DNA of 64,000 nucleotides from a virus, in IMG/VR virus record IMGVR_UViG_3300047554_000303, positions 1 to 64,000 of that record; one strand, 5' to 3'. The notes beneath the pieces are model-generated. The model did no database searches and had not been told where the DNA came from. It saw nothing but the letters and a program-made list of their open reading frames with translations. Position 1 is the first letter of the stretch. Every line of letters starts with the position of its first letter. Below are positions 1 through 46,268 of this stretch, one piece after another. Position numbers and translations under genes: made by a program.

Positions 1-1181
1 CCCGTAGACGAGTTAAGGGAGATACCTGCAGGCAGAGACCCTGCGCTAATGGTGTAGGTAGGGCTGTTAGTAGCGCTTACTGCGTCTGAGTACCCTCTTC
101 CCTGCAAGAAACTGCCGAGAGTTTGGTCTACCCAAACAGGAGGTGACCCTGTGTTTCCGCTGTACGAGACCGTTACTGCGCCATCGCCATTAGCCGCTCT
201 AATAGTGAATGAGTAGCCTTGCGGAGTAGTGGGGGTGCCTGTAATAGCTCCTGAAGATGAGTTCAAAGAGATACCCGCAGGCAAAGAGCCAGAGCTGATT
301 GAGTAGGTAGGGCTGTTTGTAGCCGAAACCGAGTCAGAGTAAGGAGTACCCACAGTAAAAGTGTTTGAAATTACGTTATCAATCCACACTGGAGGATTGA
401 AAGAGTAGATAGTAATAAATACTGTACTGCCTGATGAGACGCTAGTACCACCTGTAGGACTCTGCGATGCAACCGTGCCGTTATTTCCAGAGTTAGCTCC
501 AGAAGAGGTATAGCTAACGGACGCAACTAACCCTGCATTTTGAATGCTAGTTACCGCAGTAGACTGTGATTGACCCACAACGTTTGGAACAGTCGCTGGC
601 GGTGGAGGAGGGTCACTAATACTAATGCTAAATGACGCATCTGTAGACTGGTTAAAGTCGTCAGTTGCTCGTGCACTAAAGCCATACGTACCTGAGCTGG
701 TAGGAGTACCAGACAGAGTAAACCCAGTAGTTCCGTTGTAACTAAGGCTAAGCCCAGGGATACTTGGCGCTGTCAGGAAGCCCCAAGAACCACCGCTTGG
801 GAAAGTTGCGGTCGCACTACCTGAGTACCCGCTACCAACCTGACCAGAAGGAAAATTAGACGACCAGCTAGGAGGAGCAGGAGGAGGAGCAGCGTTTGTG
901 CTGGCCGTAATAGTACGGGTACCTAAAAGCTCGTAGTTACTAGCACGACGAATGGACATCACAAACGTGTAGCCAGTGCTAGGAGATAGTCCAGAGCTGA
1001 TTACAGTCCCGTTATCGTAGCCGCCATTTGCAGCAATGACCGTGCTACCCAAAATAGTAGCCCCAGTGCTTTCGTTCGCAATACTTACACGGACGTTGAA
1101 CGTTCCTGTGTTTTCAGCGTACCAATCGACATAAATAAAGTCGGTGCCTGTATAGGCTTGAGAAATAGAGTAGGTACTCAT
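1..1181 (-). CDS. Tail fibre/adhesin with PASTA and Ig-like (He_PIG-type) repeats, 3' end cut by window
   Basis: About 393 codons are visible and the frame stays open to the window edge. The N-terminal ~100 residues form a beta-rich unit, followed by a Pro-rich linker. Around residues 195-260 is a PASTA-type domain (VPNVVGQSQS, then an NAGL and an SGSTV motif). After it come at least two copies of a putative Ig-like repeat with the signature SLPAGISLNSS...TGTP, characteristic of He_PIG/cadherin-like bacterial surface domains. PASTA domains bind peptidoglycan/muropeptides and Ig-like repeats are common on phage appendages, so a cell-wall-binding fibre is the natural reading. It is the last visible gene of the fibre array and overlaps no neighbour; its start follows an AGGTAGGGG ribosome-binding region. 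Confidence 0.75.
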   Translation of the reverse strand, partial: MSTYSISQAYTGTDFIYVDWYAENTGTFNVRVSIANESTGATILGSTVIAANGGYDNGTVISSGLSPSTGYTFVMSIRRASNYELLGTRTITASTNAAPPPAPPSWSSNFPSGQVGSGYSGSATATFPSGGSWGFLTAPSIPGLSLSYNGTTGFTLSGTPTSSGTYGFSARATDDFNQSTDASFSISISDPPPPPATVPNVVGQSQSTAVTSIQNAGLVASVSYTSSGANSGNNGTVASQSPTGGTSVSSGSTVFITIYSFNPPVWIDNVISNTFTVGTPYSDSVSATNSPTYSISSGSLPAGISLNSSSGAITGTPTTPQGYSFTIRAANGDGAVTVSYSGNTGSPPVWVDQTLGSFLQGRGYSDAVSATNSPTYTISAGSLPAGISLNSST

Positions 1182-1189
1182 GCCCCTAC

Positions 1190-1459
1190 CTAAATCTTAA
1201 TCCAGAGGTCTCCCGACACCATACCTGAAGCAGGCGCTGAGGACTGCACATAGAGCTTGCGGTTATCAAACTTAGTCGCGTTCTCTGCAGTGCCAGCACC
1301 CACGTAAGAGAGGCTGTTCCAAGCGGTGCTTCCGTTTCCAAGCTTTAGCTTAAGGGTGTCAGTCTCTAACCCAAGCTCACCAGCTGCAAGGGTAGGGTTA
1401 GCTGAGGTCCAGTTAGCCGCAGTGTCTCTGCGGACCTGAATGTTTGCCAATCTAGGCAT
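1190..1459 (-). CDS. Small fibre-tip protein with Mtd_N-like domain
   Basis: 89 residues. Residues 1-55 (MPRLANIQVRRDT, then PTLAAGELGLETDT and KLGNGSTAWNSL) match the N-terminal domain of the Bordetella phage major tropism determinant (Mtd_N), a small beta module that begins many phage fibres. The C-terminus (SAPASGMVSGDLWIKI) is a short form of the SxTAPxxPxxGDxW module found in other fibre genes of this locus. The start follows GGAGG at ideal spacing. A paralogue lies at 11801-12103. No retroelement that would diversify it is visible. Confidence 0.75.
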   Translation of the reverse strand: MPRLANIQVRRDTAANWTSANPTLAAGELGLETDTLKLKLGNGSTAWNSLSYVGAGTAENATKFDNRKLYVQSSAPASGMVSGDLWIKI

Positions 1460-2340: not shown

Positions 2341-3026
2341 TATGCCGCCAAGTCTCCGACCAGCACGTAGCTGTTAGTTGCTACACACTTTACGGTTGCA
2401 GGAGAGTACTGGGCAGAAGTCTTACGGTTGTTGTTTTTGCTGTTTAAGGTAATCCCAGACCCTGGAGTAAACGTTATCTGAGCAGCATTTGTCTGAATAA
2501 AATCGACTTGCTCCCCAACAGCTAGCCCTTGAATCGTCACGGTTACTGCACCAGAGTTGGTGTAAAGCTTTCCCTTATCGGAGGACTGAAGAGTGTAGTT
2601 AGTTGAAAGAGAGGAAACGGTTTGAGCGGTGTTAAACCCGCCATCAGTGCCGTTAGTGCCGTTAGCTCCATCCGCACCTGCTGGTCCTTGAGGCCCTGAA
2701 GCAGTGCCAAACTCAACCCAGTAAGAGTCGTAGTAAATAAAGAACTTGCCAGTTCCAGAATCGAACCAGCCGTCTCCTGTAGTAGGGGAGCTAGGGGCTG
2801 TTTCTGACACGGAGTACTTACCTGAAGCACCATCTTCTCCCTGCAGAGAAGCTACCCACTCAGATTCAGTGCCTACAAAGCCGTTTTCAACAGCGATGTC
2901 ATAAGCAGACTTAGAGGCTGTTCTAGGGTTTAACACCCATACAGAGCCATTGTACGTCCAAGTCTTACCACTAGCACTGAAACTGGTGCCAGTACTTGGA
3001 CTATTAGGAAAGTCAATTGCTGTCAT
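2340..3026 (-). CDS. Modular fibre protein with collagen-like segment
   Basis: 228 residues. Modules in order: an N-terminal AIDFPNSPSTGTSF...WTYNGSVW unit (also in 4345-4503 and 5719-6048); a KSAYDIAVENGFVGTESEWVASL motif; a SETAPSSPTTGDGWF...YYDSYW unit (also in 12103-13179); a short collagen-like Gly-X-Y stretch (GPQGPAGADGANG); and a C-terminal beta domain ending in LVGDLAA. Collagen-like linkers are usual in trimeric phage fibres. It overlaps the next upstream gene by ATGA and the downstream glycine-rich gene by TAATG, so the trio is probably translated as a unit. Confidence 0.75.
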   Translation of the reverse strand: MTAIDFPNSPSTGTSFSASGKTWTYNGSVWVLNPRTASKSAYDIAVENGFVGTESEWVASLQGEDGASGKYSVSETAPSSPTTGDGWFDSGTGKFFIYYDSYWVEFGTASGPQGPAGADGANGTNGTDGGFNTAQTVSSLSTNYTLQSSDKGKLYTNSGAVTVTIQGLAVGEQVDFIQTNAAQITFTPGSGITLNSKNNNRKTSAQYSPATVKCVATNSYVLVGDLAA

Positions 3027-3982
3027 GCTGCATACCTTATGATTACGATACCTGAACCGCCAGCTCCAGACGGCTTAACCGAGCCTACTGGGGTAGAGCC
3101 AGCTGCTCCACCACCGCCACCACCAGTGTTGGTGCCTCCATTAGTTGGGGCAGAGTTGCTAGACGCATTAGCTCCAGTTCCACCACCGCCTAAACCACCA
3201 GCGCCACCTGCGCCACCAGCATTTCTAGGGTCTCCTGAAGCACCACCACCACCTGCGTAGTAGGTGCTCGTACCTGAGATAGAGCTTGCTAGACCTATAC
3301 CACCAGCACGAGCTGGGGTAATTCCATTAGAGCTGTTTCCATTACCACCAGGAGCGCCTGCACCACCACCGCCACCGTCACCAGGAGCGGTAGTAGCACC
3401 ACCGTTGTTACCCTGGCCAGCAGTCCCTGTACCTGAACCTCCTGAGTAGCCTCCACCACCACCACCAGAACCACCGTTCTGAGCTTGGCGACTAATGCTG
3501 GACTCGGAAGATGCGCTTCCTCCGCCAATAGCGGTCAGTGAAAACGCCGACGAATTGCTTCCATTATGGTTCGCTGGGTTATGACCTGATGCGCCAGAGG
3601 CATAAGAGGAGCCGCCAGCCCCAACAACTACCGACCACGTAGACGCTGCTACTGAGGAAAGGGTCCCTGTTAGAAGTCCTCCAGCTCCACCACCACCAGA
3701 GCCGTCGGTGCCACCAGCAGCACCACCACCACCACCGCCAGCAACAATTAAATACTGAACATCTGAAAGCGTCTGGGTAGGAACGAAATTGCCAGAAGTA
3801 GTAAAGGTGTGAACGTAAAACCCGTTAGTAAAAGTAATTGTCCCACCAGAAGCTTTAGGAGGAGGCACAATCCACCTACTACCTCTTACTGCTACGTAAT
3901 GCTCTTTCAGCGACCACATGCCGTTAGCAGATGAGTTAGAAGGCAAATTGTCAGGCCCAATAACTCCGCCGTTTATTGGCAT
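3023..3982 (-). CDS. Glycine-rich fibre/adhesin protein 2
   Basis: 319 residues. The N-terminus (MPINGGVIGPDNLPS...GMWSL) is a typical phage-fibre leader. It is followed by GFYVHTFTTSGNFVPTQTL and LIVAGGGGGGA, a ~200-residue glycine-run body, and the cap GGSGIVIIRYAA shared with the other four glycine-rich genes. Conserved cap and leader around a fast-varying middle suggest a common fold with variable surface loops. ATGA and TAATG overlaps join it to both neighbours. Confidence 0.75.
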   Translation of the reverse strand: MPINGGVIGPDNLPSNSSANGMWSLKEHYVAVRGSRWIVPPPKASGGTITFTNGFYVHTFTTSGNFVPTQTLSDVQYLIVAGGGGGGAAGGTDGSGGGGAGGLLTGTLSSVAASTWSVVVGAGGSSYASGASGHNPANHNGSNSSAFSLTAIGGGSASSESSISRQAQNGGSGGGGGGYSGGSGTGTAGQGNNGGATTAPGDGGGGGAGAPGGNGNSSNGITPARAGGIGLASSISGTSTYYAGGGGASGDPRNAGGAGGAGGLGGGGTGANASSNSAPTNGGTNTGGGGGGAAGSTPVGSVKPSGAGGSGIVIIRYAA

Positions 3983-4344: not shown

Positions 4345-4503
4345 TTATCCTCCAAAGACAATAGCCATGGCAATGGCTTTTCCAGTAGTAAAGGGAGCTG
4401 TGACTACAACTTCCCAACGGTTGTTGTTGTACTGCCAAGTGGTTCCGTTAGCAGTAAATGTTTGCCCATTAGTGGGGCTATTAGGGAAATCAAGTGCTGC
4501 CAT
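4345..4503 (-). CDS. 52-residue fibre leader-type protein (IDFPxSP module)
   Basis: Encodes 52 residues: MAALDFPNSPTNGQTF, then WQYNNNRW and a short tail ending VFGG. This is the free-standing form of the N-terminal module of the fibre proteins at 2340-3026 and 5719-6048. It starts inside a TAATG overlap with the upstream glycine-rich gene and its stop abuts the next start, so it fits the operon exactly. It may be an assembly or attachment leader, or the remnant of a longer fibre gene. Confidence 0.7.
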   Translation of the reverse strand: MAALDFPNSPTNGQTFTANGTTWQYNNNRWEVVVTAPFTTGKAIAMAIVFGG

Positions 4504-5414
4504 TATGCCGCGTACCTCACAATCACAATTCCAGAGCCACCAGCTTGTCCTGGGTCGCTGTAGCCACCACTGGCAGCTCCGCCGCCACCGCCAGTGTTTG
4601 CGGTACCCGCAGAGGACCCGTTACCGCTATAAGTTGCCTGACCACCAGTGTGGGCCCTACCGCCTGTACCGCCACCACCAGCACCTCCTGCAGCTGTAGC
4701 AGTGTCCCCACCACCAGCTCCACCAGCACCGCCGCCAGCGTAGAATGTGGCGGTTCCAGAAATAGAAGAAGAGATACCAGTTCCACCAGTGCGGTTGCTA
4801 CCAGCAGAGGCCCCACCTCCACCTCCGCCACCGTTTCTAGTGCCAGCTACTTTGGCAGAACCAGCGTTACCTTGACCAGAGGTACCCGAAGCACCTGCTG
4901 CTCCCGAGTCTCCACCAGCACCACCGCCAGAACCTCCAGAAAGTGGTCCGTTGGACTCTTCTCCACCTCCACCACCGCCACCAACAGAGGTTACACTGTG
5001 GAACGTAGAGCTGCTTCCACTGCTGCCTGATGCCGCGCTGGAGTTAAAGTAAGCAACTCCACCGCCGCCACCGCCAGCACCAATAGTAACCGTGTAACTC
5101 CCTGGTCCTAAGCTCACTGCGCCGCTAACTACTCCGCCAGCGCCACCACCGCCGCCGCCTCCGCCGCCACCGTTGGATGCCTCACTACCGCCACCGCCAC
5201 CGCCGCCAGACACAACGAGGTATTCTACGTTTGTAGTTCCAGAAGTAATCTGAAAAGTACCAGAAGAGGTAAACGTGTGGACTTTGTAGCCAGTGATGTT
5301 AGATACTGCTCCACCTGTGGCAACAATTGAGGAGATGTTATTTGCTCTAAAACTTTTCCTCAAAGTCCGAGCAGTGGTGAATGACCCCGCTTCAGAAAAC
5401 CTGTAGACGCCCAC
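4503..5414 (-). CDS. Glycine-rich fibre/adhesin protein 3
   Basis: 303 residues starting at GTG in a TAGTG overlap with the upstream gene. The leader MGVYRFSEAGSFTTARTL is followed by GYKVHTFTSSGTFQI, LVVSGGGGGGG, a glycine-run body (the densest of the five, with runs of 10 or more Gly), and the cap GGSGIVIVRYAA. Probable receptor-contact appendage. Confidence 0.73.
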   Translation of the reverse strand: MGVYRFSEAGSFTTARTLRKSFRANNISSIVATGGAVSNITGYKVHTFTSSGTFQITSGTTNVEYLVVSGGGGGGGSEASNGGGGGGGGGGAGGVVSGAVSLGPGSYTVTIGAGGGGGGVAYFNSSAASGSSGSSSTFHSVTSVGGGGGGGEESNGPLSGGSGGGAGGDSGAAGASGTSGQGNAGSAKVAGTRNGGGGGGGASAGSNRTGGTGISSSISGTATFYAGGGAGGAGGGDTATAAGGAGGGGTGGRAHTGGQATYSGNGSSAGTANTGGGGGAASGGYSDPGQAGGSGIVIVRYAA

Positions 5415-6084: not shown

Positions 6085-7389
6085 CTAAGCAGGAGTTAGG
6101 TAACGGATGATGACGACACCAGAGCCACCAGCTCCACCGTTTCCTTGCGGGATGTTAGCGCCACCGCCACCGCCACCACCAGTGTTGGCAGTCCCAGCAG
6201 CACCAGCAGCACCGTTAGTATTTCCTCCAGAACCCCCTCCGCCAGTGCCCCCAGCACCACCACTCCTTGGAGAGCTAAAGTCCATAGCAGCACCGCCGCC
6301 ACCACCACCAGCATAGAAGGTTGCGTTTAACCATTGAAGACCAGCGCCACCAGCTCCGCCAACTCCATTATTAGCACCACCATTACCTCCCACTGCCCCT
6401 GCGCCACCACCACCACCAGAACCTCCAGTACCCGCTCCTGATGCTCCTCCGTTGTTTCCCTGCCCTACAGTTCCCGCTCCTCCAGCGAGTGGGCCGCTAC
6501 CACCAGACCCTGCACCTGAACCTGAGCCTCCAGAACGACCAGCACTGCCAACAACTCCAGAGCCACCACCAAGAGCTGTGAGTGTTGAAAAAACGGAGCT
6601 AGTTCCAGGAGTGTCTTGGTTATACCCAGTCTGGGAAGACCCACCTGCACCCACATTAACCAAGTAATTACCTGAAGATAAAGACATAGTTGAGGTAAGG
6701 TAACCACCTGCACCTCCGCCAGAGCCTCGGTCGTATCCTCCAGAGCCACCACCCGCTACTACAAGAACGTCAGCCTGTAGATTACGGTTCGCAACAAAAG
6801 TTCCAGAGGAGTTGAAAGTGTGGTAAGTGTACCCATTAGAAGTACTAACAGTTCCACCAGACGCTGCTTCTACTTGGCCAGAAGCTCCACGCTTAATGCC
6901 ATAAAGAGAGGCTGAAGAGTACTGGACAAAGCTACCTGATGCTGCCACTATACTAAGGCTCGTTATGGGGCTTGAGTTGCTCCAGAGAGCTTCAGTAATC
7001 GCGTTAATACCTGCAGCGTCATTGCGCTCAACCGTTGTTTCGGCGCTAATCCTTTTGTTACCTGAGGACGCGTACCCACAGAACACTACTGAAGAGCTAC
7101 TAAAGGTGTTAGACGTGTTGTTGCCACGAGAAGTTTGGTGGTAAATCACTGCGGGGTTGTTTACTCCGCTACCAGTATTTGAAGACCACCCAAATAAAAA
7201 TCTAGAAGCCATGTTTGCAGAAGAGTTATTGGGATAAATAAACGCATTTTCCCAGCCCGTGCTAGCTACGTTATCTCTCAGAGAAGTTACTAGCAGTAAG
7301 TCATCGTAAATCTGAGGGATGTTGTTGAAAACAATGTCGGTTGACCCTCCAGACCCGACTTTAATTGTTTGAATGTGATATTTAAGCAT
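6085..7389 (-). CDS. Fibre protein: SLYG beta domain fused to glycine-rich domain (4)
   Basis: 434 residues. Residues 1-170 form a beta domain (HIQTIKVGSGGSTDIVFNNIPQIYDDLLLV...SLYGIKRG) that also occurs alone in four neighbouring genes. Residues ~185-434 are the glycine-rich module (GYTYHTFNSSGTFVANRNL, DVLVVAGGGSGG, glycine body, cap GGSGVVIIRYLTPA). The same fusion is repeated at 9118-10407. The SLYG part probably anchors the adhesin and the glycine-rich part is the distal tip (inference). TAATG coupling to the upstream gene. Confidence 0.73.
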   Translation of the reverse strand: MLKYHIQTIKVGSGGSTDIVFNNIPQIYDDLLLVTSLRDNVASTGWENAFIYPNNSSANMASRFLFGWSSNTGSGVNNPAVIYHQTSRGNNTSNTFSSSSVVFCGYASSGNKRISAETTVERNDAAGINAITEALWSNSSPITSLSIVAASGSFVQYSSASLYGIKRGASGQVEAASGGTVSTSNGYTYHTFNSSGTFVANRNLQADVLVVAGGGSGGYDRGSGGGAGGYLTSTMSLSSGNYLVNVGAGGSSQTGYNQDTPGTSSVFSTLTALGGGSGVVGSAGRSGGSGSGAGSGGSGPLAGGAGTVGQGNNGGASGAGTGGSGGGGGAGAVGGNGGANNGVGGAGGAGLQWLNATFYAGGGGGGAAMDFSSPRSGGAGGTGGGGSGGNTNGAAGAAGTANTGGGGGGGANIPQGNGGAGGSGVVIIRYLTPA

Positions 7390-7895
7390 TACGCAATCAC
7401 CCCATAAAGACTAACGTTTGTCCCTGCAGCAAAGCCCGCTCCGCCACTCGTAATAACTGTTATTGAGGTAATTGCGGCCGTGTTAGCCCATCGCACAGCC
7501 TGAGCTTCAACGCCCGTTCCAGAGACGTTATTTCTTACCAGCATTGTTTTGCGCTTATCCGTTGCAGAATAGTCCATAATGTGCGCAATGGTAGAAAAGT
7601 TTGAAGAAGTAGCTGGGCCAATACCGTAAGCCTGTCCTAGGCTGGCGTAAGCAAGCGAGTTGTTGTTTCCAGCAGCTGCAGCTGACCCACTTCCAGTCAT
7701 ACCAACATAGGCGTAGTTATTACTGGTATCACCGTTAAAACGAAGTGCGTGAACAGGGTAAGAAGTATCTGCTGGCGTACCGTTCAGAACAACGACTAAG
7801 TCTCTAAAGGATGAAGGAATCCCGCTAAAAGTAACTTGCGCAGATACTGACTGCAACGTAATGTTTGCTAGAGCCGTAGTGGATTGAAGAGCCAT
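7389..7895 (-). CDS. Stand-alone SLYG-type beta-domain fibre protein
   Basis: 168 residues from the ATG at 7895, which overlaps the upstream stop as TAATG; a longer in-frame reading to 7997 only adds the antisense-like end of the upstream gene and is rejected. Sequence: MALQSTTALANITLQSVSAQ, then GIPSSFRDLVVVLNG, RFNGDTSNNYAYVG, KTMLVRNN and the end VSLYGVIA. The order FxxIPxxxxDLxxV, RFNGDxxNNY, K(R)xxxxRN and SLYG defines a family of six domains in this locus. Confidence 0.68.
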   Translation of the reverse strand: MALQSTTALANITLQSVSAQVTFSGIPSSFRDLVVVLNGTPADTSYPVHALRFNGDTSNNYAYVGMTGSGSAAAAGNNNSLAYASLGQAYGIGPATSSNFSTIAHIMDYSATDKRKTMLVRNNVSGTGVEAQAVRWANTAAITSITVITSGGAGFAAGTNVSLYGVIA

Positions 7896-8503
7896 TATGC
7901 TGTCACCCCATAAAGAGAAAAGCGAGAACCCGTGACCAATTGAGTGCCGAGCAACGGGGATATAGTGATGCTGGTTACTCCAGCGGTGTTCATCCAAAGA
8001 CCTGACCGCATGTCTACGCTACTCCATACGTCTTTCATACCAGCCAATGACCTGACCACTTTGTTTTTTGTAGTTTCAAACGGGTCAAGAATGTCTACAA
8101 CAATTGCGCCAAATGCAGTTGCAGTTGAACTGGCAACTGGCATAGCCTCTGTTAGGTATATTGACCCAATAGAAGTGCCGCTGTTAGACGCAATAGCTGT
8201 GGTGCTGCTAAAGTTATACCCAATCAAACCGTGCACGGCGTAGTTATTTCCAGTGTCACCATTGAATCTAAGGATTACGGGGTCACTGTCAGCGCCTGTT
8301 CTATTGGTCCTAGCGGTTACGCGCAACTGGAGGTGCTGATAAACCCCCGCGTATTGACCTAAATTAGAAAAAGTTACAGAGGCTGCATCTGAGCCAAGAA
8401 CACTGGTCTCAATAAGGTATTCGCTAGAAGGAACGTTAAACGTGTCTAGGTTGCGGTACTTGACATCGTTGGTAAGGCTAGACTGCGAAGCAGACTTAAT
8501 CAT
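7895..8503 (-). CDS. SLYG-type beta-domain fibre protein
   Basis: 202 residues. A 30-residue N-terminal extension (MIKSASQSSLTNDVKYRNLD) also found in 10898-11464 (SLAQSSLIQP...) precedes the family domain: SVTFSNLGQYAGVYQHLQLRV, RFNGDTGNNYAVHG, ILDPFETTKNKVVRSL and RFSLYGVTA. Strong AAGGAG site before ATG. Fibre or baseplate appendage of unknown receptor. Confidence 0.66.
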   Translation of the reverse strand: MIKSASQSSLTNDVKYRNLDTFNVPSSEYLIETSVLGSDAASVTFSNLGQYAGVYQHLQLRVTARTNRTGADSDPVILRFNGDTGNNYAVHGLIGYNFSSTTAIASNSGTSIGSIYLTEAMPVASSTATAFGAIVVDILDPFETTKNKVVRSLAGMKDVWSSVDMRSGLWMNTAGVTSITISPLLGTQLVTGSRFSLYGVTA

Positions 8504-8513
8504 GTTCTGCTCC

Positions 8514-8750
8514 TTAGAGAACTAGAAGCGCTGCCTCTTCTTCGGTTAGAGGCTGGCCTGAAATCAGCTTCTGACGAGCAGAAGCCTTAAGAGCTTCACG
8601 AGCTTCTTCAGCAGCTACACGCTCAGCTTCAGCTTCAGCAGCAGCAAGTGCGTCTGCCTCACGCTGGGCAATCTCTTCCTCAGTAAGAGGTACGTAGGTC
8701 TGTGCACCAGTGGCACAGTCAACAATCAGCTTCATAGGGGTGTCTGACAT
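8514..8750 (-). CDS. Small Ala/Glu-rich conserved fibre-locus protein
   Basis: 78 residues: a short beta N-terminus (MKLIVDCATGAQTYVPLT) then a long helical Ala/Glu stretch (EEIAQREADALAAAEAEAER...) and SGQPLTEEEAALLVL. The LIVDCxTGxQ...LTxEEIAQREAD pattern is seen next to fibre genes in many phages; it may be a fibre assembly factor or a structural linker. Coupled by TAATG to 8750-9103. Confidence 0.6.
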   Translation of the reverse strand: MSDTPMKLIVDCATGAQTYVPLTEEEIAQREADALAAAEAEAERVAAEEAREALKASARQKLISGQPLTEEEAALLVL

Positions 8751-9103
8751 TATTCTCCTTCAGGGGTTGGGGCAGGGGCCTCTACCCACGCTAGGGTTTC
8801 TTCGTCCCATAGATAGATACGACCATCTTGTGGGTAAGCGACAGGTGCTTGCCAGCGGCAAGTGGTCTCGTTAAGTTCCCAAGACTCAAACGGCTTAGGA
8901 GGAATGAAGGCATCACGCTCTTCGTCGTAAATGTAGCCGATACCTGCAAAGTTCTTGCGAATAGTAGCGTTGTACGAGGTCTGTACCCAACGGCCACCTA
9001 GGTTCTCTACAAACCAGTCGTAGCCCTCGTTAGGCAGGTTGTTGTCGCCTACAAGAACACGTAGGACAACGTTATTCTCATCAAGTTCTGCGAAATGTGA
9101 CAT
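8750..9103 (-). CDS. Conserved virion-associated protein (MSHFAELDENN family)
   Basis: 117 residues. MSHFAELDENNVVLRVLVGD, then WVQTSYNATIRKNFAGIGY, FIPPKPFESW and YLWDEETLAW are a pattern recurring in marine and freshwater phage structural regions. Function is unknown; Trp/Tyr-rich ends suggest a compact beta protein. No Shine-Dalgarno sequence; TAGAAT lies exactly 6 nt before ATG, so the gene looks leaderless. Confidence 0.65.
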   Translation of the reverse strand: MSHFAELDENNVVLRVLVGDNNLPNEGYDWFVENLGGRWVQTSYNATIRKNFAGIGYIYDEERDAFIPPKPFESWELNETTCRWQAPVAYPQDGRIYLWDEETLAWVEAPAPTPEGE

Positions 9104-9115
9104 GTCTTTATTCTA
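9104..9115 (-). promoter_or_regulatory. Candidate leaderless -10 box (TAGAAT, 6 nt, ATG)
   Basis: TAGAAT at 9115-9110 on the minus strand, then AAAGAC and the ATG at 9103. Five of six bases match the -10 consensus. This would place transcription start at or next to the start codon. Confidence 0.45.
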
Positions 9116-9117
9116 TC

Positions 9118-10407
9118 CTAATCTGCTCTGTATCTAATGATAACTACGCCTGAACCACCAGACGCACCGTTCTCTCCTCCACCAGCGCCACCGCCAGTAT
9201 TCGCGGTGCCATTTCCAGCGGGAAGTCCACTACCAAAGTTAGTTCCATTTCCTCCACCGCCAAGTCCACCAGCACCTGAGCTGTTTCCGCTGCTACCTCC
9301 GCCACCGCCAGCGTAGTAGGCTCCGCCCCAAAGTGCCCCCGCACCACCAGCACCACCAGCACCGAATGAGCCTGCGACACCTGCTGCACTTGCACCCCCA
9401 CCACCACCGCCAGCAGCTCTACCATCTCCGTAGGTGTAGCCATTCCCTCCAGAGTTACCTTGCCCCGTAGTTCCAGAACCAGCAGTTACGGTGTTACCGT
9501 TACCTCCGCCGCCGCCACCACCGCCAGAGCCTCCAGAGCCACCAGAAGCGGGAGTTAGTTGCCGAGTACCGCCATAGCCGCCGCCGATAGCAACGGACGA
9601 TAAAAAGGAACTGTTAGACCCAGACCTGCCTTGAGGAGAACCCTCAGTTGCGCCAGCAGCTCCTCCAGAGCCTACAATAACTGGAAAAGCGCCGCGTGAA
9701 AGCGGCACTCCTGAGACCGCTAGAAAACCGCCAGCTCCACCACCACCTGGAATGTGAAAGCCTGTTCCACCGCCACCAGCAACCACTAGGGCGTCTATCT
9801 CTAGTGGCTCCTGCGCAGAGAAGGTTCCTGAGCCAGTAAAAGTGTGTACCCAATAGCCATTTGCAAAGGTAATGTTGCCGCCAATAGCTTTAGGCTTTCC
9901 AATTGCAGCTGTACGATTAATCCCGTAAAGAGTTGCGGAGGAGCCTGCAGTGAAATTGGGACCTGTTAGCAAGTACAGAGTTAGGCTTGTAATAGCAGCA
10001 GTACTGCTCCATAATCCAGCTGTAATCTCTTGGTAAGAGTTAGTTGCGCTATTTTCCATTACAACATCAGCAGAGTAACTCTTGTTATTAGAGGATGTGT
10101 AATTAGGAATGTATACAGCTAAGTTACCAAACGTGGATGCAGTAGACGCCTCCGTAGGTACTGCGCCAATAAACCCAGCAGAGATTGTTCCAGAACCTGC
10201 ACTTTGGCCATTTCCATCTAAGTATCGGGTAGTCAAGTTAGCGTTACTACCGTTAAAATACAGCCTAATGTCGTCTACGTAAACAGACGGCCTGCTACTA
10301 CGGCCAGACACTACTAAGTACAAATCCGTAAATGTCTGTGGAATGTTACTGAAGGTAATGCTAGACGCCGCAGTTGGCAGTTCTCTATGCTCAATAAGTG
10401 TGTGCAT
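9118..10407 (-). CDS. Fibre protein: SLYG beta domain fused to glycine-rich domain (5)
   Basis: 429 residues. N-terminal domain (MHTLIEHRELPTAASSITFS, IPQTFTDLYLVVSG, SATLYGINRT) as in 6085-7389, then the glycine-rich module (GYWVHTFTGSGTFSAQEPL, DALVVAGGGGTG, long Gly body, cap GGSGVVIIRYRAD). The two fusions are similar in length and order, pointing to duplication of the whole unit followed by divergence of the glycine-rich body. TAATG coupling upstream. Confidence 0.73.
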   Translation of the reverse strand: MHTLIEHRELPTAASSITFSNIPQTFTDLYLVVSGRSSRPSVYVDDIRLYFNGSNANLTTRYLDGNGQSAGSGTISAGFIGAVPTEASTASTFGNLAVYIPNYTSSNNKSYSADVVMENSATNSYQEITAGLWSSTAAITSLTLYLLTGPNFTAGSSATLYGINRTAAIGKPKAIGGNITFANGYWVHTFTGSGTFSAQEPLEIDALVVAGGGGTGFHIPGGGGAGGFLAVSGVPLSRGAFPVIVGSGGAAGATEGSPQGRSGSNSSFLSSVAIGGGYGGTRQLTPASGGSGGSGGGGGGGGNGNTVTAGSGTTGQGNSGGNGYTYGDGRAAGGGGGGASAAGVAGSFGAGGAGGAGALWGGAYYAGGGGGSSGNSSGAGGLGGGGNGTNFGSGLPAGNGTANTGGGAGGGENGASGGSGVVIIRYRAD

Positions 10408-10895
10408 TAGGCGTGTACTCCGTACAAATAGAAGGTACTACCAGCTGCCCAAGTTCCTGTTTGAACAAAGTTAACAGTAGTAATTGGGTCATTACTGTTG
10501 AATTTGTTCACTTGAGCGTGAACGTATCCTGATGTACCTGCGTTGTTTACTCGTAAAAGACATAGCTTGTTTTTATCAGAACGCGCATAGTCCATGACCT
10601 GCCAGATTAAATTAACATTGGACCCATTAGGGTCACCTACGTTATTACTGGTATCTACTTGGGGAATTGTAAACTGATTGCTTCCCGTAGAACTACCAGT
10701 GCCGTACATAGTTACTGACGAATAGCTACTGCTTGAAACGTTGTTAAACCTAAGCTGTGTGTACCCAGAGGGTATGTAGTTAGCTACTAAAACTAAGTCA
10801 CCGTAAATCTGAGGAATGTTGGAGAAAGTAACGCTAGAACTACTGGTAGCTAAAGTTACTTGATTTAAAGGTATGTAGGTAGGAGTTATGGGCAT
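10407..10895 (-). CDS. Stand-alone SLYG-type beta-domain fibre protein
   Basis: 162 residues: MPITPTYIPLNQVTLATSSS, then FSNIPQIYGDLVLVANY, RFNNVSSSSYSSVTMYG, MDYARSDKNKLCLLRVNN and FYLYGVHA. Matches the six-member domain family of this locus. Start after GAGG at 5-nt spacing. It directly precedes, in transcription order, the fusion protein 9118-10407 that contains the same domain. Confidence 0.66.
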   Translation of the reverse strand: MPITPTYIPLNQVTLATSSSSVTFSNIPQIYGDLVLVANYIPSGYTQLRFNNVSSSSYSSVTMYGTGSSTGSNQFTIPQVDTSNNVGDPNGSNVNLIWQVMDYARSDKNKLCLLRVNNAGTSGYVHAQVNKFNSNDPITTVNFVQTGTWAAGSTFYLYGVHA

Positions 10896-10897
10896 AG

Positions 10898-11464
10898 TTA
10901 CCTCACCTTAAGACCGTAAAGAGAAAACCTAGACCCAGCCCCGTGATTCTGCCTAGTGTTGCTGTACGTGATAGACGTTATCGCTGCAGTGTTTTTCCAC
11001 AAAACTGAGCCAAAAAAGTTAGCTCCAGCTCCCGCAAGAGTGTTACCGCTTATTCCTTTAATAGTAGTAAATTTTCCTGTATTAAAGCAATCTAAAATGT
11101 CTATAACACTTACGTTGTCTCCAGCACTCCACTGGTAATTAATAGTCGGAGCAGCTGCGTTTCCTACACCGACTCCACCTCCAGTAGAGTACATGGAGTG
11201 AGAGTGGTAATTACTAGTAGTTGTGTCGCCATTTAACGTCAGGTAGTAGTCTCCGTAAGTGGAGTACCCAACCGCAGTAATTCGTAATTGAAAATGTTGG
11301 TAGTCCGAGTACCGAGATAGGTTAGTAAAGCTTACAGACGACGCAGCAGCGCCTAAACGCACAGTCTCTAGGTGGTGAAAGTAGTTGCTCTCGTAGTCAC
11401 CTAGAAGTGAAGTAACACTAGAAGGCTGGATGAGGCTAGATTGGGCAAGGCTTTTGACTGCCAT
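10898..11464 (-). CDS. SLYG-type beta-domain fibre protein
   Basis: 188 residues: an N-terminal SLAQSSLIQPSSV leader like 7895-8503, then VSFTNLSRYSDYQHFQLRI, TLNGDTTTSNYHSHSMYS, ILDCFNTGKFTTIKG and RFSLYGLKVR. Shares YQHxQLR and ILDxF with 7895-8503, so these two are the closest pair in the family. AGGGGG precedes the ATG. Confidence 0.65.
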   Translation of the reverse strand: MAVKSLAQSSLIQPSSVTSLLGDYESNYFHHLETVRLGAAASSVSFTNLSRYSDYQHFQLRITAVGYSTYGDYYLTLNGDTTTSNYHSHSMYSTGGGVGVGNAAAPTINYQWSAGDNVSVIDILDCFNTGKFTTIKGISGNTLAGAGANFFGSVLWKNTAAITSITYSNTRQNHGAGSRFSLYGLKVR

Positions 11465-11472
11465 TATGCCCC

Positions 11473-11799
11473 CTAAGCAGCGGTCTCTGAACCGAAGACG
11501 CTAAAGCTCAAGTTTGCAGTAGAGGCGTACACAGTGAGTACGTCAGAAGCGTCCATGGTGATGCCCGAAGTAATGGTGGTTGAGTCAGATGCACCGACAG
11601 TCACGTCATAAGCAATGTAGTGCTGGTTAGCTAGTGTCGCACCGTTAGGGCGCACTGCGATTCTGTAGGTCGCAGGGGCTGCTGAGCGGTTGCATACGAA
11701 GATGGTGGAGATTACCGTCTCAGTGCTGGCACCAACAGTGTAGATGTCGGTGTTGGTAGTGGCGCTCGGTGCGCTCTGTGCTAGTACTTTTACTGCCAT
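11473..11799 (-). CDS. Small beta-sandwich virion protein
   Basis: 108 residues: MAVKVLAQSAPSATTNTDIY, ETVISTIFVCNRSAAPATYR, ASDSTTITSGITMDASDVL and LSFSVFGSETAA. The opening VKVLAQS resembles the VKSLAQSSL leader of 10898-11464, linking the two families. Similar proteins in other phages sit next to fibre genes; role unknown. Confidence 0.63.
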   Translation of the reverse strand: MAVKVLAQSAPSATTNTDIYTVGASTETVISTIFVCNRSAAPATYRIAVRPNGATLANQHYIAYDVTVGASDSTTITSGITMDASDVLTVYASTANLSFSVFGSETAA

Positions 11800-11800
11800 T

Positions 11801-12103
11801 CTAAGCTCCCATCAAGAGAAAGATTTGTTTGGTTGGGTCAGCCGCTGCTGTGCCATTGACCCAGTTAGTTCCGTTGTAGGTAAGTACCTGGCCACTAGTA
11901 GCAGAGGTGATTACAACATCACCTACGTTATCAAGCGCCTCTAGGTTTCCGAAGTATGAAAGTGAGTTCCATGCGGTGGAACCATTCCCCAGCTTCACTT
12001 TGCCAGTGTTGGTCTCTAGACCCCACTCACCAGCTGCAAGGGTAGGGTTAGCGGTGGTCCACTGTGTGGCTGTACCACGTCTAATCTGAATTTTAGTTGG
12101 CAT
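11801..12103 (-). CDS. Fibre protein with Mtd_N-like domain
   Basis: 100 residues. MPTKIQIRRGTATQWTTANP, then LAAGEWGLETNTGKVKLGNG and AWNSLSY form the Mtd_N module (compare 1190-1459). The rest (NVGDVVITSATSGQVLTYNG...W) is a repeat common in phage long fibres, and the last residues IFLLMGA resemble the end of 5719-6048 (EVLMGAI). TAATG coupling to 12103-13179. Confidence 0.72.
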   Translation of the reverse strand: MPTKIQIRRGTATQWTTANPTLAAGEWGLETNTGKVKLGNGSTAWNSLSYFGNLEALDNVGDVVITSATSGQVLTYNGTNWVNGTAAADPTKQIFLLMGA

Positions 12104-16581: not shown

Positions 16582-17694
16582 TTACGCGGTGTATACCTTG
16601 ACAATAGCCTGGTCGGTGATAACACCTAGACCCCAGATGGCGTACCATGCTAGTGCGTGCTCACGACCGAAGTCTAGAACACCACCGTCACGGAGCTCAA
16701 CTGGTAGGGAGATTGCGTGACCAAATGCGTTGTCACCAATCATGATGGACTCGTAAACGTCAGTTGCAGTGGTGCCAGTTGGGGCAGTTGCGCCTGGGTT
16801 CTCTGGGTTTCCACCAGAACCAGGAGCGGTGTTTGCCTTTACTGGAGCAGACCAGTAGTCGCTTGGAGCGCCTACCTGCGAGCTGTAGTTTACAGCGGTA
16901 CCCTGGGCAAGCTTCTTCACCTGAGTGGTCTCAATGAAGACTACGTCGTATAGACGACCAATCTCACCGAGCATGAAGTTACCTGGAGCAGCGTACTTGG
17001 TAACTTCGATGAACTCTGGGTTCGAACGAAGGTCACGAGACTGCTTAGGGTGGATGAACTGAACGTAGGTCTCACCTAGTCTTGGGATGTTCTTGGAAGC
17101 CAAGGTTAGAGCGGCATCCTTGATAGCACCAGTGGTGAGCTTGTGGTTGGCGGAAACGCCAGCGATAGAGGTAGCTGCGCTGCCCTCATCGTAGTTGGTG
17201 AACGCGCCACCAGAGATACCTGAGCGGTCGTAACCGAATACTGCAGAAGTTGCAGCAGACAGGGTGTTACGCGCCTGTAGGTCTAGGTACTGTGCCATGT
17301 GGCGTCCTAGAAGACGGGAAGCCGAAGCCATTACGTCGTCGAAGGAAGCGTTTAGCAGCAGCTCTGATACGGCAGTTGCGTAACCGTGCTCAGCAACGGT
17401 GATAGCAATCTGCTCTGCAGTCAGAGAGTTGGTGGTCATACGTACACCTTCGGTCAGTGGGGTTGGGTCCACTGCGAAGTTCTTGTAGCGAAGGAAGTTG
17501 ACACGAAGACCAGGAGCTACACCGAGCTCGGTCTTCTTGACAGCAAACTGCTCAAAGCGAAGAATTGGCATCGCCTGGAACAGAATTTCCTTCGACCAGA
17601 TGGTTTGAATAGCCTGGGACAGCTGGGTGTTAGAACCCGAGTACGCGGTAGGCGCGGACGCTAGCTGACCAGTACCAGTAATACCTGAAGCCAT
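16582..17694 (-). CDS. Major capsid protein, N4-gp56-like (HK97 fold)
   Basis: 370 residues. MASGITGTGQLASAPTAYSG, then SQAIQTIWSKEILFQAMPIL, FEQFAVKKTELGVAPGLRVN, PLTEGVRMTTNSLTAEQIAI and FIHPKQSRDLRSNPEFIEV follow the N4-gp56 capsid family: the LTEG and HP motifs and the length agree. It forms the icosahedral shell. It lies directly downstream of the scaffold gene and upstream of a GC-rich hairpin, as expected for a highly expressed late gene. Confidence 0.85.
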   Translation of the reverse strand: MASGITGTGQLASAPTAYSGSNTQLSQAIQTIWSKEILFQAMPILRFEQFAVKKTELGVAPGLRVNFLRYKNFAVDPTPLTEGVRMTTNSLTAEQIAITVAEHGYATAVSELLLNASFDDVMASASRLLGRHMAQYLDLQARNTLSAATSAVFGYDRSGISGGAFTNYDEGSAATSIAGVSANHKLTTGAIKDAALTLASKNIPRLGETYVQFIHPKQSRDLRSNPEFIEVTKYAAPGNFMLGEIGRLYDVVFIETTQVKKLAQGTAVNYSSQVGAPSDYWSAPVKANTAPGSGGNPENPGATAPTGTTATDVYESIMIGDNAFGHAISLPVELRDGGVLDFGREHALAWYAIWGLGVITDQAIVKVYTA

Positions 17695-43065: not shown

Positions 43066-44466
43066 ATGTACGCAACACTAATCCTTAGCCAGTCCCCGTA
43101 CGGTGTACGCCAGACTGCTATCATCCCTACCACCAACAACGGTGTACGTATCTTGCACAGATGCGGCTTCGGTCGTGGCCTAGCTGCAACTTGGAGCGAA
43201 GCTTACCCAGATGCAGAAGCACTACAAGAGTATGTACTCAATGCACCTGTGTCACTAGCTATGACTCCAGCTCATGTACGTGACGCTGATGTCATGGCTC
43301 GTACTCCTAACAACGTACTGCAAGCACTAGGTAAGCGACTAGCCACAGCGTTCGTCCCTAGCAACTCCACTCTAGGTGAGCTATTAGACAATGTACTAGC
43401 CGCTTGTTCTACTAACCCTGCATCACTAGCCAAGTATGCACACAAGCAGTCAGTGACTGTGACTGTCCCTTCAGTAGCACCTGCACCACACCCTGTGACA
43501 GTGAGCGTCCACTACCCACAGACTAATGAGGTAGTACAAGAGCAGCTCACTCCGACTGCACCTGTAACCGAAGAGGTAATCAACATGGCTACACCTGCAC
43601 CACAGCCAGCCACAGTTACTGTGACTAACCGCTCGCTCAACACCTTGAACATCCCAGACGTTGAGCCGTACTTTGAGCGTTCGTTCGAAGACATCTCTGA
43701 GTCACGTATCTATGACTCTGCACGTAAGAACCAGTGGAATGTACTACTGACTGGTGATGCTGGTACAGGCAAGACATCATCTGCCCGTAACTATGCAGCA
43801 CAGCGCAAGCTCCCATTCGTAGTCATCGAATGTACTCAACAGATTGACAACAGCATTACTCAGGGTCGCTTCGTACCTGCTGAGGACGGCACGTCTATCA
43901 AGTGGGTGTACTCACAGCTAGCCACTGCTATCCAGCAGCCTTCGGTCATCTTGCTCAATGAGTTGACCCGTATGTCTCCCAAGTCATCCTCACTGTTCCT
44001 TCGCCTCATCTGGGAGCGTGAGCTATTGATTGAGCCATTCAACGAGGTTATCAAGGTACACCCAGAGTGCTTGTTCATTGCTGATGCCAACGTAGGTAAC
44101 AACTACAGCGGTACCATGCGACAGGACGGCGCACTGCTTGACCGCTTTGCTATCAAGCTTCCGTTCAGTTACGACGCTGAGCTTGAGGCCAAGTTCATCC
44201 CGTACCCTGCACTGCTAGGCTTTGCCACTGGTATCCGTACTGCGACCGAGCTAGGTCAGGAAGACTTCACTGTCCCACTGTCCACTCGTTTGCTACAGAC
44301 CTTCGTAGCACAAGTCAAGGAGTTCAGTTGGAGCTTCGCTGTCCAACGTCTGCTGTCCAACTTCCCTACCGACACTGGTGAGCGTGACGCTATCAAGCTT
44401 CGTATCGATGCTGACGCACCACGTATTGCTCGTGAGTTCGGTGTTGACTTAGCACCTACTGCCTAA
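43066..44466 (+). CDS. AAA+ ATPase, MoxR/CobS-like
   Basis: 466 residues. Residues 1-200 are an N-terminal region with a Val/Pro/Thr-rich linker. AAA+ module: Walker A GDAGTGKT at 230-237, Walker B VILLNE at 294-299 (Asn where Asp is usual, as in some MoxR proteins), sensor-1 ADANVGNNYSG near 340, arginine finger LLDRF near 357. MoxR/CobS ATPases act with a VWA partner to insert metals or remodel complexes; the next gene encodes such a partner. AAAAGGAAA before ATG. Confidence 0.8.
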   Translation: MYATLILSQSPYGVRQTAIIPTTNNGVRILHRCGFGRGLAATWSEAYPDAEALQEYVLNAPVSLAMTPAHVRDADVMARTPNNVLQALGKRLATAFVPSNSTLGELLDNVLAACSTNPASLAKYAHKQSVTVTVPSVAPAPHPVTVSVHYPQTNEVVQEQLTPTAPVTEEVINMATPAPQPATVTVTNRSLNTLNIPDVEPYFERSFEDISESRIYDSARKNQWNVLLTGDAGTGKTSSARNYAAQRKLPFVVIECTQQIDNSITQGRFVPAEDGTSIKWVYSQLATAIQQPSVILLNELTRMSPKSSSLFLRLIWERELLIEPFNEVIKVHPECLFIADANVGNNYSGTMRQDGALLDRFAIKLPFSYDAELEAKFIPYPALLGFATGIRTATELGQEDFTVPLSTRLLQTFVAQVKEFSWSFAVQRLLSNFPTDTGERDAIKLRIDADAPRIAREFGVDLAPTA

Positions 44467-44492: not shown

Positions 44493-46268
44493 GTGGCTAT
44501 CACCGTATACAACAATCAAGTAGACAAAGAATCTGTGCAGCGCATCTACGCTGCCAAGTTGCAGCAGAGCTTTGGCAAGTTTGCTCGTGCAATTGCTTTG
44601 CGAGACATCTCTGTGTCTATCGTCCCGCAACAGAGAGGGCTTCAGCCAGCACCTGCATGGAGCACAGACAACGGTCTGGTAGTTACTTACGACCAGAGCA
44701 AAGGGAGTGTGCTTGCTGCAAACAACCTGCTGCGACTCAAGGGCTTGGTCATTCATGAGCTATCTCACCTATTGTTTACGCCACGTAGTTTGACTGGTCT
44801 AGTCAAGTGGGTGCACGCACAGAACTACGGCTCCTCGTTCAACATTCTTGAGGACAATCGTATTGAGAACATGATGGTAGCCAAGATGTCTGGTATTGCA
44901 CCATGGCTAGTACACACTGTTGCAACAGAGTTACTGGCTGCCAGCAACCCAGACTTGCTTCCGCTTGTATGGGGTCGCAAGTATCTTGACTCCAACATCC
45001 GACTGCTTGCTCGTGATGAGTGGGCTAAGAAGTATGGTGCTGAGAATGCTGCTGAGGTGTGCAAGTATCTGGACAGATACGTACAGCTCAACCTTGGTGA
45101 CACTAAGAACTACACAGAAGCACAGGAGATTATTGCTGCGTTCCACACACTGTGTCAGTTGGCTGCTCCCACCTCTTCCCTTCATGGTCAGTCTTCATCT
45201 GCTCCTGAGAGCAATGGTGAGAAGCCTGAGTCACGTAGTGAGCAAGGCAAGCTACTCAAGCAGGTCGACATGTCTGAGCCTGAAGAAGATGAGTCAACTG
45301 CTGTGCACACATCCTCTGACTCGGAAGACACAGAGGACACTCCATCGTTGACTAAGCAACTACAGCGTGTTGCTGACGAGGCTTATACTGAGGTGTTAGA
45401 GGATGTAAAGAACACCATTGCTAACGTACGTAATGATGACGGTGTTGGCGAGGTACATGACCACGACAATGACAGGGGCAAAGGTAGGAGTGTGGTCAAC
45501 ATGCCGAGCTGGTCTTGGAGAAAGATTTACCCTTCTGCCGTTAGCATTCAAGCATCACGTAGGTTTGCTAATGAGCTTATCAATCTCAAGGCTGAGCATG
45601 ACCCAGGTTGGTTGCGCAAGACCAGCCAAGGCAAGGTCAATGTTCGACAGTTCATGCAGGGTGCTGACTTTGACGAGATGTTTGACCAGTGGTCTGAGGG
45701 CAACCAAGATGTCAGTGACATTGAGTGTGTGGTTCTTGTAGACAGCTCTGGTTCAATGCACGACATGCTGACCCCTGCTTACGAAGCTATGTGGACAATC
45801 AAGCGTGCACTAGATAGCATCAACGCTAGTACAACTGTTATACAGTTTGCTGACATGGGTGGTTGGCTATACAAAGCTGACGAGCGTGCACAGACATACA
45901 TCAAGACTGCGCCTAGTGGTGTCGGCGGCTCTACCTACCCGTTCTCTAGTCTCAAAGCTGCCAAAGAAATCCTGACTAACTCTCCACGTGCAATCAAGCT
46001 GCTGCTTGTTGTTACTGACGGTGCATGGGGTAGCCCACAAGCATGCGACCAGTTGATTACTGGTATGCGTACATCGGGAGTACTGACAAGCCTCGTGTTC
46101 TTGACTGAACCTTCTGAGAACATTCCTTACTACCTCCGCTCAGTTGATGGCGGCATAGCTGTTGACGGACACAAGTGTGAGTTCGTACAACACCTTACCA
46201 ACCCACTAGAGATTGTTGACGTAGCCAAAGCGATTACCAAGCGTGCACAACGTGCGCTTCTTGTATAG
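44493..46268 (+). CDS. Zincin-VWA protein (CobT/DUF2201-like)
   Basis: 591 residues from GTG after GAGGAGG. N-terminal domain has VIHELSHLLFTPRS (HELSH at 88-92) and NILEDNRIENMM (E120, E125), an HEXXH plus downstream acidic motif as in zincins. A low-complexity acidic/Ser linker spans ~225-330. The C-terminal VWA domain has VVLVDSSGSM (MIDAS at 417-421), GGSTY (T481) and VVTDGAWG (508-510), a full MIDAS set. Paired with the AAA+ gene upstream it resembles CobS-CobT and MoxR-VWA modules. Confidence 0.8.
   Translation: MAITVYNNQVDKESVQRIYAAKLQQSFGKFARAIALRDISVSIVPQQRGLQPAPAWSTDNGLVVTYDQSKGSVLAANNLLRLKGLVIHELSHLLFTPRSLTGLVKWVHAQNYGSSFNILEDNRIENMMVAKMSGIAPWLVHTVATELLAASNPDLLPLVWGRKYLDSNIRLLARDEWAKKYGAENAAEVCKYLDRYVQLNLGDTKNYTEAQEIIAAFHTLCQLAAPTSSLHGQSSSAPESNGEKPESRSEQGKLLKQVDMSEPEEDESTAVHTSSDSEDTEDTPSLTKQLQRVADEAYTEVLEDVKNTIANVRNDDGVGEVHDHDNDRGKGRSVVNMPSWSWRKIYPSAVSIQASRRFANELINLKAEHDPGWLRKTSQGKVNVRQFMQGADFDEMFDQWSEGNQDVSDIECVVLVDSSGSMHDMLTPAYEAMWTIKRALDSINASTTVIQFADMGGWLYKADERAQTYIKTAPSGVGGSTYPFSSLKAAKEILTNSPRAIKLLLVVTDGAWGSPQACDQLITGMRTSGVLTSLVFLTEPSENIPYYLRSVDGGIAVDGHKCEFVQHLTNPLEIVDVAKAITKRAQRALLV

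Follow-up and report, generated by a model that had tools for sequence, protein, structure and literature searches.

Why would a phage encode the same small beta domain six times within a few kilobases of its fibre genes? This question is raised by a viral record of 91,620 bases (IMG/VR IMGVR_UViG_3300047554_000303), of which we analyzed the first 64 kb, hereafter the window. Six genes on the minus strand, between positions 6085 and 11464, each carry a domain of about 165 residues that we call the SLYG domain. The record comes from a myophage, since it encodes the sheath of a contractile tail together with a gp19-like tail tube and a baseplate J protein. A first, sequence-only reading of this locus had taken the six as equivalent copies spread by duplication. 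Instead, we find three ancient types that cannot stand in for one another, arranged in two cassettes with the same fixed order, 1-2-3. We regard both the SLYG family and the three-gene cassette as practically certain.

All six genes are present at the proposed coordinates, and they encode homologous, all-beta domains, as had been proposed. Whichever copy is left out, a profile of the other five recovers it at E 1e-20 to 1e-28. With these profiles the best non-copy in the window scores E 0.079, and nothing but the copies reaches E 0.05. Single sequences are less sensitive. When each copy was searched with phmmer against all 326 open reading frames (ORFs) of the window, most copies recovered most others at E 1e-4 to 1e-20, but some pairs were missed: the copies labelled C and E matched at E 0.34-0.38, A and C at about 0.007, and copy F as a query missed A and D. 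The missed pairs belong to different types. The homology is well above chance, and with profiles the locus passes the test that the first reading had set for its own refutation; single-sequence searches lose a few cross-type pairs. The shared motifs also turned out looser than first described. The domain does end in (S/T/Y)LYG, but the "...NY" of the second proposed motif is missing from the genes at 6085 and 9118. Only residues M1, F21, N54, K112, T143 and L162-Y163-G164 are invariant in all six copies. A degenerate-motif scan from the six-copy alignment was dropped, the alignment being too diverse for searching.

The domain appears to be undescribed, in agreement with the first reading: no family in Pfam, NCBIfam, PHROGs or PDB sequences covers it. 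The four window copies that consist of the domain only gave no match in Pfam, NCBIfam or PHROGs beyond two faint signals for one copy, at E 0.026 and 0.3. When 59 type 1 relatives were compared with the family libraries, there were only isolated matches, each confined to a single relative.

Are the six copies equivalent? Relatives fetched with a type 1 query carry adjoining further copies, mostly in multiples of three. We labelled copies only by their position modulo three in a tree of 206 domains, 180 of them labelled. This tree shows 6 label changes, compared with 75-95 after the labels were shuffled within loci. A sample of 75 rows analyzed with a mixture model in IQ-TREE shows 4 changes, where shuffling gives a mean of 41.4. 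In the same sample, the Shimodaira-Hasegawa-like approximate likelihood ratio test (SH-aLRT) gives 96% support to a single type 3 group and 78% to a type 2 group. These data indicate that types 1, 2 and 3 (p1, p2 and p3) branch separately in the tree and had diverged before the cassettes were duplicated.

The order of the types was counted without using position. Copies from 255 non-redundant loci were typed by per-type profiles, and type 1 was followed by type 2 in 238 cases, type 2 by type 3 in 226 and type 3 by type 1 in 22. Among clearly typed neighbours the exceptions were 3 before 2, 2 before 1 and 1 before 3, once each. Searches starting with type 2 or type 3 returned the same 1-2-3 order. 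Caudovirales ct2KA10 carries one intact cassette. A rare broken order is seen in locus L130, where p2 p1 p3 is followed by a normal cassette. The two window cassettes are 35-37% identical to each other, about as divergent as cassettes of different phages. Their similarity to each other barely exceeds that to foreign cassettes, and we therefore rejected the idea that the six copies arose by local tandem duplication.

The types also differ in their conserved residues. In domain numbering, F18, I21, Y27, L30, N50, Y99, K105, W128 and LYG154-156 form a core common to all types. Type 1 adds H29, Q31, R33, H61, D94, D97 and K103, each conserved at 95% or above and absent from or rarer in the other types, along with R108 and S126 at 92-94%. 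Y97 and P99 are found in type 3 alone. Such type-specific sets would fit, without proving, chains that have fixed and different neighbours.

The cassettes are compact. In cassette I, the type 1 gene (10898-11464, 188 residues, p1 clade) encodes a putative N-terminal docking extension (MAVKSLAQSSL...) followed by the SLYG domain. The type 2 gene (10407-10895, 162 residues, p2 clade) encodes only the domain, and its ATG at 10895 lies 2 nt past p1. The type 3 gene (9118-10407, 429 residues, p3 clade) joins the domain (residues ~1-164) to a Gly_rich_2 tip (193-427), and its start overlaps the p2 stop by 1 nt in the sequence TAATG. Cassette II has the same build: a type 1 gene (7895-8503, 202 residues) with the putative docking extension and the domain, a type 2 gene (7389-7895, 168 residues) with the domain only, and a type 3 gene (6085-7389, 434 residues) with the domain and a Gly_rich_2 tip at 196-430. 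For the type 2 gene we took the ATG at 7895 as the start; the ORF list has a longer TTG start. Both junctions of cassette II are 1-nt TAATG overlaps, giving three such overlaps and one 2-nt gap in the window. Across relatives, the commonest junction is likewise a 1-nt stop/start overlap (35/90 and 32/90), and most others lie within 12 nt.

The ends of the chains differ by type. The N-terminal extension has a median of 22 residues in type 1 and about 4 in types 2 and 3. A motif, S-(L/M)-(L/V)-(A/V)-G-N, occurs at the N terminus of 16 of 264 type 1 proteins and of 10 of 50 stand-alone glycine-rich proteins. It is found in no type 2 or type 3 protein and in 1 of 14,881 other ORFs. From this distribution we infer that the motif may be a docking peptide. 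In the sequence-only reading the domain looked like an interchangeable adaptor. The types are not interchangeable, but the adaptor idea survives in part, in that the putative docking peptide of type 1 is sometimes common to stand-alone glycine-rich tip proteins.

At the other end, both fusions to a glycine-rich tip are real. The C-terminal halves of 6085-7389 and 9118-10407 match Pfam Gly_rich_2 (PF21722) with 61.8 and 53.6 bits, above the cut-off of 24.3; the SLYG domain lies outside the coverage of this family. A long C-terminal extension is absent from 191 of the 223 complete cassettes; in 20 it is carried by type 3 alone, and in 12 by both type 2 and type 3. A tip is never found on type 2 alone and never on type 1. 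The C-terminal extensions that we inspected are rich in glycine and in most cases terminate in GGSG(I/V)VI(I/V)RY or a sequence close to it. Both window cassettes belong to the class with a tip on type 3 only.

We modelled the type 1 domain of 7895-8503 from 59 sequences, leaving out one row from an annotated phage record. The model has a mean predicted local distance difference test score (pLDDT) of 93.8 and a predicted template modelling score (pTM) of 0.89, and it is all beta with one short helix. A comparison with predicted viral structures gave 111 matches with E values of 1e-3 or lower and template modelling (TM) scores up to 0.89. Most are phage proteins without a name; the named ones include glycine-rich, tail fibre, Stf-repeat and collagen-repeat proteins. 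The SLYG domain is likely a jelly-roll-like beta-sandwich, judging from this model, on either the concanavalin-like or the tumour necrosis factor (TNF)-like side.

What might three such domains build? We propose that the locus holds two three-gene fibre-head cassettes, each giving a 1:1:1 heterotrimeric jelly-roll head on a tail appendage, and we hold this view with moderate confidence. Three adjacent genes would supply three diverged paralogous jelly-roll domains, with one of each entering a head. The N-terminal peptide of the type 1 chain would dock the head to the virion. The glycine-rich tip at the C terminus of type 3, or of types 2 and 3 in other phages, would contact the host; in cassettes with no fused tip, the head itself or separate tip proteins may do so. 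Two cassettes would provide the phage with two different heads. We favour the heterotrimer on indirect grounds: the conserved order, the near-abutting genes, the type-specific residues and chain ends, the correlated divergence of the types and a covariation signal between types 3 and 1, together with a confident single-domain model, a tethered model and relatives on collagen-like stalks.

The tethered model was made possible by locus L008, in which the three cassette genes share one reading frame and give a continuous chain once the two stops are replaced by glycine. This 536-residue chain, modelled with 36 rows, gave a pLDDT of 81.7 and a pTM of 0.68. By our own estimate, unplaced domains would give a pTM of about 0.4, which suggests that some relation between the domains is predicted. 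A tethered alignment with single-domain rows was discarded, as MAFFT aligned those rows to the third domain irrespective of type; the rebuilt alignment contained only three-in-one and type 1-2 rows. A natural three-domain fusion (locus L059) was tried as a deeper modelling query and found no relatives.

An alternative is a serial stack, in which each type would form its own homotrimer, and these would be stacked on one fibre like the successive segments of the T4 long tail fibre, with type 1 on the virion side and type 3 distal. Gene order would then equal proximal-to-distal order, and a docking extension only on type 1 with tips mostly on type 3 is what such a fibre would show. The divergence of the types is correlated (Mantel rho), and more so between stack neighbours (0.67 for types 1 and 2, 0.53 for types 2 and 3) than between types 1 and 3 (0.44). 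However, the 12 cassettes with tips on both types 2 and 3 fit poorly with a type 2 buried in mid-stack. Covariation between chains, measured as mutual information against within-lineage shuffles of partners, also argues against it: these shuffles retain most of the 1-2 and 2-3 covariation, and the only signal clearly above them joins the terminal strands of type 3 to position 26 of type 1, which would not be stack neighbours. On independent branches, changes at type 3 position 159 agree with those at type 1 position 26 about 6:0, and changes at position 3 about 4.5:0.3. A contact of this kind would close a ring and is not needed by a linear stack, although we take it as a hint only. We consider the stack unlikely, though it is the first alternative to keep in mind.

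Several results weigh against a heterotrimeric jelly-roll head. The correlated divergence and most of the inter-chain covariation are explained by shared cassette ancestry. The covariation between types 3 and 1 was picked post hoc, and its sign tests have a median p of 0.03-0.13 depending on direction. The chains were modelled tethered, and the tether may itself push the domains together. Foldseek matches of the domain to solved structures are weak. The best is the CBM40 domain of the sialidase NanA (probability 1.00, TM 0.42, root-mean-square deviation 8.6); the TNF-like lectins BC2L-C and PLTL reach a probability of 0.21-0.63 and a TM of at most 0.32, and L-type lectins also fall below the best match. 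With the three-domain model, LamG and galectin matches have a TM below 0.3. A firm assignment to the TNF-like fold, suggested by the paper on phage Pam3, was not confirmed by Foldseek and was set aside.

Can the domain work alone? In two single-copy relatives (L091 and L109) it follows a collagen-like G-x-x stretch and lies at the C-terminal end; collagen is built from three chains, which would fit a three-chain head. No collagen-like repeat was found in the cassette genes, and such stalks occur only in these two single-copy relatives. Single-copy relatives have no partners, which indicates that the domain can function by itself and leaves room for a different explanation, in which the three types are separate adhesins or decorations that share no complex and cluster through shared expression and joint transfer. 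Several adhesins are common in phage fibre regions, and this region also encodes three stand-alone Gly_rich_2 proteins. Yet breaks in the order are very rare, few cassettes lack a member, and with the docking extension confined to type 1, types 2 and 3 have no visible attachment of their own. These data make separate adhesins improbable in our view.

Other relatives carry the domain in different settings. Natural chains occur in L059 (4866-6743), with three SLYG domains, and in L068 (7101-10139), with two; these look like separate internal repeats because they group with the single-copy relatives. Among cultured phages, a single copy is present in a fibre-type gene of Streptomyces phage Microdon (gp29, L088 8440-9627, annotated as a hypothetical protein) and in Erythrobacter phage vB_EliS-L02 (L089 6793-9792, annotated as a tail fiber protein). 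Either phage might be used as a bench model.

The majority of phage fibres described so far are homotrimers. Complement C1q offers a general parallel, with three paralogous chains from adjacent genes forming a heterotrimeric jelly-roll head on a collagen-like stalk. Its adjacent paralogous genes resemble the cassette, and its stalked head resembles the two single-copy relatives. In contrast, the cassettes studied here have no collagen stalk and their heterotrimer is proposed; at the sequence level C1q was compared through family searches only.

Closer precedents come from viruses. The gp35, gp36 and gp37 proteins of mycobacteriophage Mysterious form a heterotrimer, according to a cryo-electron microscopy preprint (PMC13252515). 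As described there, these are three consecutively numbered proteins of beta-sandwich build that form a fibre-like heterotrimer on the baseplate. They differ in that all three help docking, and the passages considered here make no mention of a cassette that recurs together with a glycine-rich tip (PMC13252515). A tblastn search with the window copies against 50,697 phage records gave no mycobacteriophage match, the Mysterious sequences themselves not being part of the comparison. The tail proteins of virophage DSLV2 are reported to form a 1:1:1 heterotrimer, and the trio is found in 45 virophages (PMC12724248). Here, too, three consecutive genes encode tail proteins of similar size; the DSLV2 fibre resembles the T4 gp37 tip, with collar and needle, rather than a SLYG-family jelly-roll and belongs to a virophage (PMC12724248). 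The pattern common to both systems, three adjacent genes of similar size kept together, is what we observe across the 255 loci.

The third comparison is gp24 of the fresh-water phage Pam3, a trimeric fibre with TNF-like and glycine-rich domains (PMC9608196). It likewise places a beta-sandwich beside a tip that is rich in glycine and presumed to be receptor-binding, whereas it is a homotrimer of a single protein and is docked by a helical bundle (PMC9608196). In Pam3 the TNF-like part runs without a break into the glycine-rich part, probably the counterpart of Gly_rich_2 in our phage, with the SLYG domain as an additional module. Pam3 gp24 also requires a separate chaperone, gp25 (PMC9608196), so types 1 or 2 might be assembly chaperones for type 3 that are absent from the mature virion. 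We consider this very improbable, since one domain with the same conserved core is present in all three types whereas Pam3 gp25 combines a beta-sandwich with a helical domain, and since type 1 bears a docking-type N terminus that is found on tip proteins too.

The three-gene heterotrimer design thus has precedents, and the breadth and strict order of this cassette make a structure worthwhile. The strict-order cassette is present in about 200 non-redundant phage loci. If the heterotrimer is correct, an asymmetric fibre head would be common in environmental phages and may bear one or two tips instead of three. Single-copy relatives set against three-type cassettes would then offer a case for the transition from homotrimer to obligate heterotrimer. 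More generally, the cassettes may represent a large undescribed class of obligate-heterotrimer heads, in which one chain docks and one or two carry an exchangeable tip, which arose from single-gene homotrimers by ancient triplication and which are inherited or exchanged as a unit. We see the chances of this broader proposal as evenly balanced. In any case, the family gives a name to a domain that goes by "hypothetical protein" in present annotation.

The cassettes sit within a run of minus-strand fibre genes that lies between the start of the record and the major capsid gene (16582-17694). Between them lies a minus-strand gene (8750-9103) whose product matches phrog_7759, with no assigned function; in ct2KA10 a protein like it is encoded after the cassette (L090 9696-10082). 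Next to cassette I, 11473-11799 (minus strand) encodes a small protein with tail-fibre PHROG matches that starts with MAVKVLAQS, like the MAVKSLAQS of the type 1 protein of 10898-11464. A close relative lies ahead of the cassette region in ct2KA10 (L090 5810-6136). Two further small minus-strand proteins (11801-12103 and 1190-1459) have similar N-terminal sequences, and 11801-12103 matches Mtd_N, the N-terminal domain of the major tropism determinant. The stand-alone Gly_rich_2 proteins are encoded at 1507-2340, 3023-3982 and 4503-5414 (minus strand), and with the two fused tips the phage therefore encodes at least five glycine-rich tips.

At the DNA level, comparison of the region with known phages gave no match. 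A search of bacterial genomes for a host gave two weak matches only, to contigs of metagenome-assembled genomes (MAGs) from Planctomycetota and Patescibacteria. Elsewhere in the window, an AAA_5 ATPase gene (43066-44466, plus strand) is followed by a gene with a weak VWA/CoxE match (44493-46268, plus strand), a MoxR-VWA-like pair in a phage. Finally, fibre-like genes are present at the far end of the record (L003 10995-11600) as well as at its start (window 1-1459), which suggests a circularly permuted genome that was cut within the fibre region.

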